From contig NZ_BJKB01000003.1 in NCBI RefSeq assembly GCF_010725055.1, positions 186,001 through 250,000 on the forward strand: 64,000 nucleotides of DNA. Reading direction: 5' to 3'. How positions within the stretch are numbered: position 1 is the first letter of the stretch; the number at the start of each line of letters is the position of its first letter. A program made the translations under genes and the position numbers. The DNA comes from Gelidibacter japonicus (lineage in GTDB: Bacteria; Bacteroidota; Bacteroidia; Flavobacteriales; Flavobacteriaceae). The notes under the pieces were generated by a model, which saw nothing but the letters and a program-made list of their open reading frames with translations, ran no database searches and had not been told where the DNA came from. This document shows positions 17,219-59,540 of this stretch, one piece after another.

Positions 17219-17223
17219 TACTT

Positions 17224-17573
17224 AAGTAGATCGCCTTATCGCTTCCTTAGAAATTGGGAGGAGGAAAGTCCGAACACCGTAGTGCAACATAATGGTTAAT
17301 GGCCATCGGTCGTGAGATCAGGAAAAGTGCAACAGAAAGAATGTACAGGTCAAGCTGTAGTGAAATCAGGTAAACTCTATGTGGTGCAATGTCATGTAAA
17401 CCAACGTTCCGTCCCGGTAGGGATTGGGAGAGGGCGGCACGCTCGATTGTTGGAGGGTAGACAGCTAAAGTGCATTGGCAACAGTGCATTCAGATAAATG
17501 ATAAGGCCACTTTTCTATTTGGAATTCAGTTTCCAAAATGAAATTGGACAGAATTCGGCTTATAGATTTGCTT
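17224..17573 (+). ncRNA. rnpB: RNase P RNA (bacterial class A)
   Basis: This is the catalytic RNA of RNase P, which trims tRNA 5' ends. Universally conserved segments are visible: gaggaaagtccgaac near 17262, the GTGCAACAGAAAG region near 17327, ggtaaactc near 17369, agataaatgataaggcc near 17493, and the diagnostic 3' end gacagaattcggcttata near 17548. The two ends pair: aagtagatc at 17224-17232 with gatttgctt at 17565-17573, nine consecutive pairs including wobbles, forming helix P1. A -7 promoter element sits just upstream and a hairpin terminator just downstream. Small ORFs across this RNA on both strands are not genes. Confidence 0.95.
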
Positions 17574-17583
17574 ACTTAAACAG

Positions 17584-57701: not shown

Positions 57702-57732
57702 TTGCTTTCTTTGGAATGAAGGGCTACATTTG
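57702..57732 (+). promoter_or_regulatory. Promoter of tRNA-Ser (TTG-N20-TACATTTG)
   Basis: TTG at 57702-57704 and TACATTTG at 57725-57732 are 20 bp apart, close to the Bacteroidota consensus TTG-N19-TAnnTTTG. The start site would be near 57738, followed by gcatccgcattt, a start region typical of stable RNA genes, then tRNA-Ser at 57766. Confidence 0.8.
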
Positions 57733-57765: not shown

Positions 57766-57849
57766 GGAGAGGTGCCAGAGTGGTAATGGAGCAGATTGCT
57801 AATCTGTCGACGGGAAACTGTCGCCAGGGTTCGAGTCCCTGTCTCTCCG
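57766..57849 (+). tRNA. tRNA-Ser(GCU)
   Basis: An 84-nt cloverleaf. Acceptor ggagagg pairs with tctctcc. The anticodon stem cagat/atctg holds the loop with GCT. A long variable arm (class II, gacgggaaactgtc) marks serine, the T arm is cagggttcgagtccctg and the discriminator is G. CCA is not encoded. It has its own promoter upstream and the tRNA-Pro region follows 21 bp downstream. Confidence 0.97.
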
Positions 57850-57869
57850 CAATATTTAGATAACCAATT

Positions 57870-57964
57870 CGGGGTGTATCACGCTAAGGCGTGACAGGTC
57901 TACCCAGGTTATCGCGTCACGCCAATGGCGTGAAGGTTGTCACGCTTGAGGCGTGACCACCCAA
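57870..57964 (+). other. tRNA-Pro-like sequence with three identical-type hairpin arms
   Basis: It opens with the same 5' block as the intact tRNA-Pro 343 bp away (accaattcggggtgta) and keeps segments of its D-arm region (tacccaggttatcgcg, intact copy tagcccggttatcgcg) and variable loop (aaggtt, intact copy gaggtc). It ends with CACCC, which can pair with GGGTG of the 5' acceptor arm. Where the D, anticodon and T arms should be, it has TCACGCTAAGGCGTGA, TCACGCCAATGGCGTGA and TCACGCTTGAGGCGTGA. The middle hairpin is exactly 17 nt, the size of the anticodon arm. No anticodon is recognisable, so it cannot be a normal tRNA. I call it a tRNA-derived or tRNA-mimicking sequence. Confidence 0.6.
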
Positions 57965-57974
57965 ACAGTAAATT

Positions 57975-58222
57975 ATGGATTATACGGTTTACATATTGTA
58001 TAGCCAAAAACGTTCAAGATATTATGTTGGTCAAACAGATAATATCGAAAGTAGATTGATACGACACAACAAGGGCTTAGTAGCATCGACTAAAACAGGA
58101 ACGCCATGGAATTTGGTTTTTACCCAACATGTAAAAACAGATCAGAGGCATTAATTTTAGAGAAGAAGATTAAAAAGCGAGGAGCCAAAAGATATATTGA
58201 AGATAACCAATTCGGGGTGTAG
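57975..58222 (+). pseudogene. GIY-YIG nuclease family ORF with a frameshift
   Basis: From ATG 57975 the frame reads MDYTVYILYSQKRSRYYVGQ with the GIY-YIG pair (here Y-I-L ... Y-Y-V-G), then DNIESRLIRHNKGLVASTKTG and PWNLVFTQH, and stops at 58152-58154. A shift by one base near 58130 restores KNRSEALILEKKIKKRG then AKRYIED and ends at 58222. The restored protein would be 82 residues, the usual size of the small single-domain UPF0213/YhbQ-like family. The last codons (NQFGV, stop) are encoded by the first 10 bases of tRNA-Pro. A one-base deletion is the simplest cause; a sequencing error is possible. Confidence 0.8.
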
Positions 58223-58287
58223 CGTAGCCCGGTTATCGCGCCGCGTTTGGGACGCGGAGGTCGCAGGTTCGAATCCTGCCACCCCGA
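58213..58287 (+). tRNA. tRNA-Pro(UGG)
   Basis: A 75-nt cloverleaf. Acceptor cggggtg pairs with caccccg, the anticodon stem ccgcg/cgcgg carries the loop tttggga (anticodon TGG), the T arm is gcaggttcgaatcctgc and the discriminator is A. CCA is not encoded. Its 5' end overlaps the 3' end of the frameshifted GIY-YIG ORF. A terminator follows at 58335. Confidence 0.97.
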
Positions 58288-58334
58288 CATAATGGAGGTC
58301 GTCACGCCTTAAAGCGTGACCACTCCGACCAGTA

Positions 58335-58371
58335 AAAGCCTAACAAACCAAATATTTGTTAGGCTTTTTTC
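58335..58371 (+). terminator. Terminator of the tRNA-Ser/tRNA-Pro unit
   Basis: Perfect 11-bp stem agcctaacaaa (58337-58347) with tttgttaggct (58355-58365), then a T run. It probably ends one transcript that begins at the tRNA-Ser promoter and includes both tRNAs. Confidence 0.9.
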
Positions 58372-59085: not shown

Positions 59086-59540
59086 ATGAAGAAAAATTAC
59101 TTTTTTATTAGTTTTCTAATAGCAATCGTTTCATTAGTCGCTTGTACAAATGATGATGTGAAAGATGTACCTTATACAACAGGGGTTATTAAATTTGAGT
59201 ATCAGAAATCAACACTAATTAACGGATTATCAAAGTCAAAAGACACAATTATAAGCTTTACCTCAATGTTGTAAACCACTTGTGTTAAATGTGGGATGAT
59301 AGCAGAAAACAGAAATATACAATGACATTATGGGAGAATAAATGGGCAGTCTTTAATGGCTATAATAATGAACTTTTGTGGTGCACAAATGATGTATTTG
59401 GATTTAATCCTTTATCACATAATCAACTAATTGATAGAATTGAAAGTTCAGAAAATTCTTATGAATGTGTTCTAGGCAATAATAGGTTGTTTTGCTCGAA
59501 AATTTTAAAGAAAATAACAATGGCGGTGTTTGAGAAATGA
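59086..59540 (+). pseudogene. Probably degraded small lipoprotein gene
   Basis: 59086-59274 encodes 62 residues with a signal peptide and lipobox LVAC (Cys at about 20), then stops (TAA) after SFTSML. A second frame (59289-59540, 83 residues, MWDDSRKQKYTMTLWENKW...) starts 14 bp later in another frame. I cannot join the two by one simple change. The second part looks beta-rich like the rest of a small lipoprotein. Either the gene is broken or the 62-residue lipoprotein is real and the rest is debris. No family was recognised. Confidence 0.4.

Follow-up and report, generated by a model that had tools for sequence, protein, structure and literature searches.

A frameshifted GIY-YIG gene and a hairpin-tagged tRNA-Pro remnant in Gelidibacter japonicus, probably a decayed minimal mobile element that parasitizes tRNA genes in Bacteroidota

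Upstream of an intact tRNA-Pro gene of Gelidibacter japonicus lies a second, incomplete copy of the same gene that carries palindromes in the places of arms, followed by a short gene of the GIY-YIG type. The locus raises the question of whether this arrangement is a mobile element, a host module or the debris of a duplicated tRNA. A first-pass annotation of the 64,000-nucleotide stretch of DNA analysed here (the window) had proposed a tRNA-mimicking mobile or regulatory element, perhaps a substrate of tRNA-processing enzymes or of the GIY-YIG protein; the mobile element associated with the GIY-YIG gene is now upheld by the architecture of the unit and by its presence/absence polymorphism within the genus and the family. 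The best reading is of a minimal SLX1-like GIY-YIG element that recombines into tRNA genes, restoring one tRNA and leaving behind a remnant tagged by a hairpin; the window would then probably hold a decayed copy of such an element, which parasitizes tRNA genes in Bacteroidota.

Four perfect palindromes of the form TCACGC-N-GCGTGA are present at the locus (Table 1). Shuffled versions of the window contain a mean of 0.02, with none of 100 shuffles reaching four, and the palindromes in tRNA-Pro frames can be regarded as real. Read against the intact tRNA-Pro(UGG), the partial copy still has the leader and the 5' end, a portion of the D arm, the variable loop and CCACCC. Replacement of all three arms had been claimed for it, which is correct for the anticodon arm, swapped exactly (17 nt for 17), and for the T arm, where palindrome 3 has been exchanged with the outermost G-C pair kept, as palindrome 4 has in the small 3' tRNA-Pro fragment. 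The D arm departs from this description, palindrome 1 being an insertion rather than a clean swap, with the 5' half of the arm displaced; its CAGGTC tail also trails TCACGC palindromes at two other loci (L008 and L009).

Table 1. Features of the tRNA-Ser/tRNA-Pro locus, in window coordinates
Feature	Position	Strand	Evidence
TACATTTG, match to TAnnTTTG, ahead of tRNA-Ser	57725..57732	+	sequence
tRNA-Ser(GCU), intact upstream neighbour	57766..57850	+	ARAGORN, Rfam
Inserted 343-bp unit (partial tRNA-Pro copy and GIY-YIG gene)	57859..58201	+	empty sites of congeners
Direct repeat copy 1, GATAACCAATTCGGGGTGTA, leader and 5' end of tRNA-Pro	57859..57878	+	
Partial tRNA-Pro copy, hairpins for arms	57870..57962	+	sequence; palindrome scan; fold
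Palindrome 1, D-arm region, then CAGGTC tail	57879..57894	+	palindrome scan
Palindrome 2, 17 nt, exact place of the 17-nt anticodon arm	57917..57933	+	sequence; palindrome scan
Palindrome 3, place of the T arm; with flanking G and C, GTCACGC...GCGTGAC	57940..57956	+	
SLX1/UPF0213-like GIY-YIG gene, frameshifted	57975..58222	+	ORF reading, Pfam, PDB matches
Direct repeat copy 2, end of GIY-YIG frame and start of intact tRNA-Pro	58202..58221	+	
tRNA-Pro(UGG), intact, rebuilt target	58213..58288	+	ARAGORN, Rfam
Small 3' tRNA-Pro fragment, 38 bp, GGAGGTCG-palindrome-CCACTCCGACCA, without a gene of its own	58294..58331	+	
Palindrome 4, T-arm place in the 3' tRNA-Pro fragment	58302..58319	+	palindrome scan

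The predicted fold of the partial copy has a z score of -4.9 and contains the expected pairing of CACCC with GGGUG of the 5' end, but a tRNA shape is not recovered: the best predicted fold is not a cloverleaf, because palindromes 1 and 2 pair with each other. ARAGORN called only the tRNA-Ser(GCU) and the tRNA-Pro(UGG) around the unit. The copy reached the gathering score of no Rfam family and gave no match to the Rfam tRNA model at E values up to 10, its T loop being absent; a recognized cloverleaf with a T loop, the mark of a functional tRNA, was not found in it. The octamer TACATTTG matches TAnnTTTG, the -7 promoter box of Bacteroidota, and this candidate promoter may drive the tRNA-Ser, the fragment, the GIY-YIG gene and the tRNA-Pro jointly. 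Counting the motif was uninformative as promoter evidence, since it lies upstream of the gene in 28 of 50 related loci and inside the unit in 23 of 50.

The GIY-YIG gene is the only recognized gene in the unit, and the 343 bp leave no room for an integrase or a transposase gene. Two of its features had been overlooked: the last codons of the original frame fall in the tRNA leader and in the opening bases of the tRNA-Pro, and a frameshift breaks the gene, so that the window copy is probably dead. The first piece nevertheless matches Pfam family PF01541 with an E value of 6.7e-12, compared with 9e-15 for an intact relative (L055/L098). This relative is 79 residues long and consists of the GIY-YIG domain alone, residues 2-69 matching the Pfam model. 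Its six PDB matches at E values up to 1 include SLX1 (E = 0.002) and the UPF0213 protein 1zg2 (E = 0.003) and contain no I-Tev chain, and the group I intron endonuclease model scored 19.5 bits against a cut-off of 56. These matches place the protein in the SLX1/UPF0213 branch of the GIY-YIG superfamily. The genes are under strong purifying selection, with a median dN/dS of 0.186 and values below 0.5 for all 689 pairs compared (from 62 equal-length open reading frames, 70-97% identical).

Mobility of the unit is well supported by comparison within the genus. At the Ser-Pro locus, two of nine genomes carry the unit (the window genome and G302) and seven are empty. A different tRNA-Pro locus, recognized across the genus by the same upstream sequence, is also occupied in two of the nine genomes (once in G301 and twice in tandem in G300), the unit being absent from the other seven. 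The 20-bp direct repeat that bounds the window unit is single at the empty site of G303 and, with two base differences, at that of G013. In its nuclease part the window unit shares 93.4% identity with G301, whose unit lies at the other locus, but only 84.5% with G302, which is occupied at the same locus, although for the neighbouring host gene the identities to G301 and G302 are 85.0% and 82.0%, respectively. Two loci from named Gelidibacter species (L135 and L147) match the elements of G300 and G302. The G301 fragment has an anticodon arm that is half foreign and half native, as if it had arisen through recombination inside the arm. The small 3' tRNA-Pro fragment also varies in presence within the genus; it is similar in G303, G013, G302 and G300 and is absent beside the tRNA-Pro in G301. 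Searches of plasmids and phages at E 1e-8 and of viral contigs gave no copy and hence no vector, a point against the mobile reading.

An explanation without movement would be that the units are ancient and vertically inherited and that their number changes only through unequal crossing-over between the duplicated tRNA parts. An empty site is the expected outcome of crossover between repeats, tandem arrays are frequent (up to five units, at L214), and several genera have a unit at the tRNA-Ser/Pro locus. The finding of units at two different tRNA-Pro loci within a single genus, the nearest relative of the window element being at the other locus, and at least ten changes of target amino acid on the nuclease tree, poorly resolved as it is, argue against this explanation and make it unlikely.

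Palindrome searches in 149 genomes led to further loci with tandem units. In Altibacter, four 349-bp units, each comprising a tRNA-Pro fragment, hairpins and a GIY-YIG gene, stand ahead of a single intact tRNA-Pro(UGG). Queries with three proteins from such arrays extended the set to 185 loci, of which the best 80, mostly from Flavobacteriaceae and some from other Bacteroidota, were typed as 62 of form A, eight of form B and ten untyped, several on account of contig ends. Form A duplicates the 5' part of the tRNA and has the intact tRNA downstream of the gene; form B duplicates the 3' part, with the intact tRNA upstream of the gene. The order in form B, as found in Flavobacterium and Chryseobacterium records, is an intact tRNA with its terminator, the gene and then the 3' tRNA part, in which the anticodon arm is exchanged and after which the terminator is repeated in several cases. 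An active unit is approximately 300-400 bp long and consists of a partial copy of the target tRNA, a nuclease gene (approximately 75-95 residues; a single GIY-YIG domain of the SLX1/UPF0213 type) and a second tRNA stretch that, joined to native sequence, restores an intact tRNA. Related genomes thus keep the arrangement, a retention on which the first-pass proposal had been made to depend. At least three remnants (L099, L100 and L104) are called tRNA-Pro by ARAGORN, which is a caution for tRNA annotation pipelines.

Of the first 130 loci, 123 yielded open reading frames of at least 60 residues, and a tRNA lies on the same strand within 450 nt in 109 of these 123. Since the 130 loci had partly been picked for arrays, 40 further hits were taken in list order, regardless of context; in 38 of them a same-strand tRNA is found within the same distance (Met, Ala, Arg, Asp, Asn, Phe, Ser, Pro, His or Val). 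Taken together, 152 of the 170 loci (148 distinct) have such a tRNA and 18 have none in reach, several of the latter being at contig ends. These figures and the empty-site comparison bear out insertion in tRNA genes with restoration of the tRNA, the targets including Pro, Arg, Ala, Met, Asn, Asp, Phe and Val. An exact tRNA fragment of at least 10 nt on the opposite side of the gene, sought after all complete tRNAs had been masked, is present in 125 of the 152 loci, compared with four of 152 when the tRNAs were reversed. A perfect hairpin of non-native sequence was detected near this fragment in 110 of the 125 loci, leaving 15 without one by this test. Of the 27 loci with no far-side fragment, some are real units in which the fragment has diverged or the contig has ended, and those at tRNA-His look like true exceptions. 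In the 50 form-A loci where the tRNA directly follows the gene, the gene end is overlapped by 10 or 15 nt in 45.

A competing account, that decaying tandem tRNA duplicates collect spreading palindromic repeats and that the GIY-YIG gene is an unrelated neighbour, can be weighed against these data. It holds locally, the window gene being frameshifted, and the window copy is itself debris. For the family as a whole it fails, given the conservation of the arrangement and the purifying selection on the nuclease, so that the units are not debris in general. The existence of several palindrome classes and of other tRNA copies that carry palindromes with no GIY-YIG match near them (in a search of this genome) would suit it, as would the palindromes outside tRNA frames described below. 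Decay does not account for the adjoining same-strand tRNA at the context-blind loci, for gene 3' ends that are fitted to the tRNA or for an arm exchange that is exact and recurs at several tRNAs, and it would also be expected to yield deletions and native loops; as a general explanation it is improbable.

A further competing account, in which the GIY-YIG protein is a resident repair or tRNA-related enzyme encoded in tRNA operons and the hairpin copy is a leader that controls its mRNA, is very unlikely. The gene is conserved and in the sense orientation relative to the tRNA, the T-arm hairpin has a nearly invariant stem with a variable loop and a few G-T pairs, and a prokaryotic relative of SLX1 is reported to be fused to a TrmH-like tRNA methyltransferase (PMC1564403), all of which would be compatible with a host function. 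Against it are the patchy distribution (relatives at E 1e-8 or better in 82 of 299 family genomes), the presence of the unit in only four of the nine genomes of the genus, split over two loci, and the occurrence of five-unit arrays, many target tRNAs and both topologies, which are unsuited to a single function.

The exchange of hairpins follows arm boundaries in many cases. Among the best 80 of the 185 loci, 48 hairpins replace tRNA positions 51/52-66/67 (the T arm) and 16 occupy positions 29-45 (the anticodon arm), 15 of the latter being foreign, whereas that of L126 is a native arm in variant form. In this set, the hairpin nearest upstream of the gene has a stem foreign to its tRNA in 60 of the 62 form-A loci, the exceptions being L155, where it is half native, and L103, which is cut by the contig end; a native-like TTCRANTC T loop within 90 nt of the gene is found in none of the 62. 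Exact arm exchange recurs at tRNA-Leu (28-44), tRNA-Gly (50-64), tRNA-Val (29-45) and the form-B tRNA-Pro; for tRNA-Gly it is exact in L086 and L255, and a two-base shift appears in the program output for L080. The tRNAs for Met, Asn, Arg and Phe show no such exchange; there the hairpin has been added within a loop or next to one.

In most units the foreign hairpin lies near the break of the fragment. Homology to the tRNA stops 5-8 nt past the hairpin in 53 of 59 form-A loci with a T-arm or anticodon-arm exchange, a distance that is partly forced for the T arm because the tRNA ends there; for the anticodon arm, where it is not forced, the same distance is found in nine of 11. Much of the T-arm pattern is shared descent and not a series of independent events. 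Compensatory changes do not establish pairing in the T-arm hairpin, since the stem is nearly invariant and several of the segments (26 distinct ones selected by pattern, representing 57 of 85 sequences) are too long. In L155 the native anticodon arm of tRNA-Pro(GGG), CCACGCTGGGGGCGTGG, has the form CCACGC...GCGTGG, the same stem as one foreign class, and the arm of the fragment is a near-copy of it; some hairpin classes may therefore descend from tRNA arms.

One candidate role, in which the hairpins would prevent mispairing of the duplicated half with the real tRNA, was rejected as weak at best. In a folding test of the tRNA the mean was 0.362 with the hairpin and 0.305 with the native arm restored, the value with the hairpin being higher in 16 of 24 cases, and at 19 loci the actual hairpins gave approximately 0.36 compared with approximately 0.33 for shuffled hairpins.

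On a nuclease tree of 141 rows and 83 columns, in which many forks are unresolved, lineages mostly carry their own target tRNA and hairpin class. The Pro-associated clade has mostly short NNNCGC...GCGNNN hairpins, the Arg/Ala/Met clade mostly long GC-rich hairpins and the Asn/Arg-CCU/Met clade mostly CGAT...ATCG hairpins, with five misfits (L157, L205, L212, L220 and L223). Among the rows with an assigned class, hairpin class requires at fewest seven changes, a figure that includes the effect of kinship. The match between class and clade is a lead rather than proof of cognate recognition, since shared descent alone could produce it.

A tentative possibility is that the GIY-YIG nuclease and its hairpin form a cognate pair that moves through tRNA genes guided by the hairpin and gives rise to derivatives without a gene. 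The nuclease would cut tRNA arms in single-stranded or cruciform form, the hairpin of the element would be substituted for the arm at a distance of a few bases from the junction, and the gene-less copies of tRNA-Leu, tRNA-Gly and tRNA-Trp that bear the same hairpin would be non-autonomous derivatives. Such a pair would be a Bacteroidota counterpart of REP/RAYT with a different nuclease fold and a possible source of the dispersed palindromes in flavobacterial genomes. Template switching during replication is reported to create and maintain hairpins (PMC8794818), but alone would not explain the same TCACGC stem at different tRNAs.

Several tandem series were also noted. At L080, L086 and L255, small 3' tRNA-Gly fragments with an exchanged T arm lie in tandem, four copies with a 44-bp period in L086, and no GIY-YIG gene was noticed beside them; it is possible that they are non-autonomous derivatives. 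At L080 (2197-2720 in G123), five tandem 106-bp tRNA-Trp 5' fragments with TCACGCCTAAGGCGTGA precede an intact tRNA-Trp. At L204/L208 (G256), three tandem GIY-YIG genes occur with TGCCGACCAATCGCGTCGGCA hairpins; no tRNA or tmRNA was called there, and a T-arm-like CCGGTTCGAAACCGG lies beside the first gene.

For the recombining element favoured here, we infer the nuclease step and the role of the hairpin as follows. The GIY-YIG nuclease would break DNA at or near tRNA arms, and repair by homologous recombination over the duplicated tRNA stretch could then insert, remove or multiply the unit, as has been proposed for SegB. One crossover joining the target tRNA to a circle or to a donor copy would leave just such a duplicated stretch. 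The foreign hairpin may mark the junction of the element, or may protect the remnant from the nuclease and from tRNA maturation. It counts against the mechanism that the rebuilt, intact tRNA should itself be cut by any nuclease acting on native arms.

Classical GIY-YIG homing endonucleases such as I-TevI and the Seg proteins carry a separate C-terminal DNA-binding module after the catalytic domain. The 79-residue protein has no such module. Such enzymes also cleave alleles that lack the gene and convert them; here, empty and occupied alleles are both seen at the sequence level. The element may work most like a free-standing homing endonuclease. SegB, the nearest tested system, is a free-standing GIY-YIG homing endonuclease encoded beside the tRNAs of T-even phages; it is reported to cut tRNA-containing DNA, and tandem amplification follows, for which its authors consider it likely that the 5' region of the tRNA recombines with the 3' region of segB (PMC13096335). 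The present element resembles it in the position of a GIY-YIG gene beside tRNAs, and the overlap between gene end and tRNA is similar to the regions of SegB recombination. Unlike phage SegB, the element is chromosomal, is found in Bacteroidota and encodes a catalytic domain of approximately 80 residues closest to SLX1/UPF0213; it also includes a partial tRNA copy with exchanged arms, hairpins of a kind absent from the available portion of the SegB account (PMC13096335).

The stand-alone SLX1/UPF0213 proteins (PDB entries 7cq2 and 1zg2) are sequence relatives that likewise consist of one minimal domain. Through its stimulation of recombination SLX1, a structure-specific enzyme, maintains the copy number of rDNA, and the accessible part of PMC1564403 does not describe these proteins as mobile or as linked to tRNA copies. 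The element offers a testable function for stand-alone SLX1-like GIY-YIG proteins.

REP palindromes are short hairpins paired with RAYT/TnpA-REP transposases, which are Y1 HUH nucleases. Short hairpins accompanied by a small nuclease, a hairpin class that mostly follows the nuclease lineage and a break at a short, fairly fixed distance from the hairpin are common to both systems, whereas in the present one the nuclease is GIY-YIG rather than HUH/Y1 and the hairpins lie within tRNA fragments. Some integrative elements insert in tRNA genes and restore the target with sequence that they carry. Rebuilding of the target tRNA by element-borne sequence is a shared property, but here there is no integrase, the element is approximately 350 bp long with one gene, foreign hairpins are present in the remnant and the duplicated stretch spans the leader and much of the tRNA. 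Since the element lacks defining features of classical homing endonucleases, REP/RAYT and integrase-bearing elements, the architecture is classed as new; a literature search limited to open-licence PubMed Central found no description of it. It points to a class of very small one-gene mobile elements that have essential tRNA genes as homes. It also explains the occurrence of odd tRNA pseudogenes and of tandem arrays in the genomes of flavobacteria, and its hairpin-for-hairpin exchange at exact arm boundaries calls for a mechanism at the DNA or RNA level.

Beyond the window, the pattern recurs in the genome at tRNA-Leu, tRNA-fMet and tRNA-Asn, which had been missed. Random scatter of the palindromes had been put forward as evidence against a tRNA frame; by this test, five of the nine TCACGC palindromes in the genome lie in tRNA frames (four in the window and one in a second tRNA-Leu(UAG) whose anticodon arm it replaces exactly) and four lie elsewhere, one of these within a terminator-like repeat. 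At L006 (G000:C12:83894) a TCACGC palindrome occupies the centre of another inverted repeat that was already there, AACTAAAAAA...TTTTTTAGTT, resembling an apex set into a terminator. In the family, TCACGC palindromes occur in 54 of 149 genomes, many of which may be background, a reversed control pattern also giving some matches. A simple genome-wide spread of palindromes was set aside, the exact T-arm form GTCACGC..GCGTGACCACC being confined to five of the 149 genomes.

A k-mer comparison of 30 tRNA loci with their flanks (of 38 matches above the cut-off) revealed further broken tRNA copies in this genome. A second tRNA-fMet copy lies 430 bp downstream of the first (L039; G000:C8:179050 and 179580); its D-loop part is preceded by a CCGTCTGAACGAATTCATTCGGACA palindrome and followed by a long one, CCCGCCCG..CGGGCGGG, and the search of this genome gave no GIY-YIG match nearby. 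Directly upstream of the tRNA-Asn at 243836 (L025; G000:C4) is a tRNA-Asn 5' fragment in which TCGTGATAGCTATCGGGA replaces GTT of the D loop, and the same arrangement occurs in G292 (L224), there with a GIY-YIG gene. In G143, a TCACGC...GCGTGA hairpin was identified by eye inside a 23S rRNA stretch (L094, 600-900), and the same palindrome pair, approximately 1.6 kb apart, is found again at a second place in that genome. The window also contains a class A bacterial RNase P RNA at 17223-17578 and a pair of adjoining short frames at 59086-59540 that look like pieces of one broken gene, the first of them beginning in the manner of a lipoprotein (MKKNYFFISFLIAIVSLVACTND).
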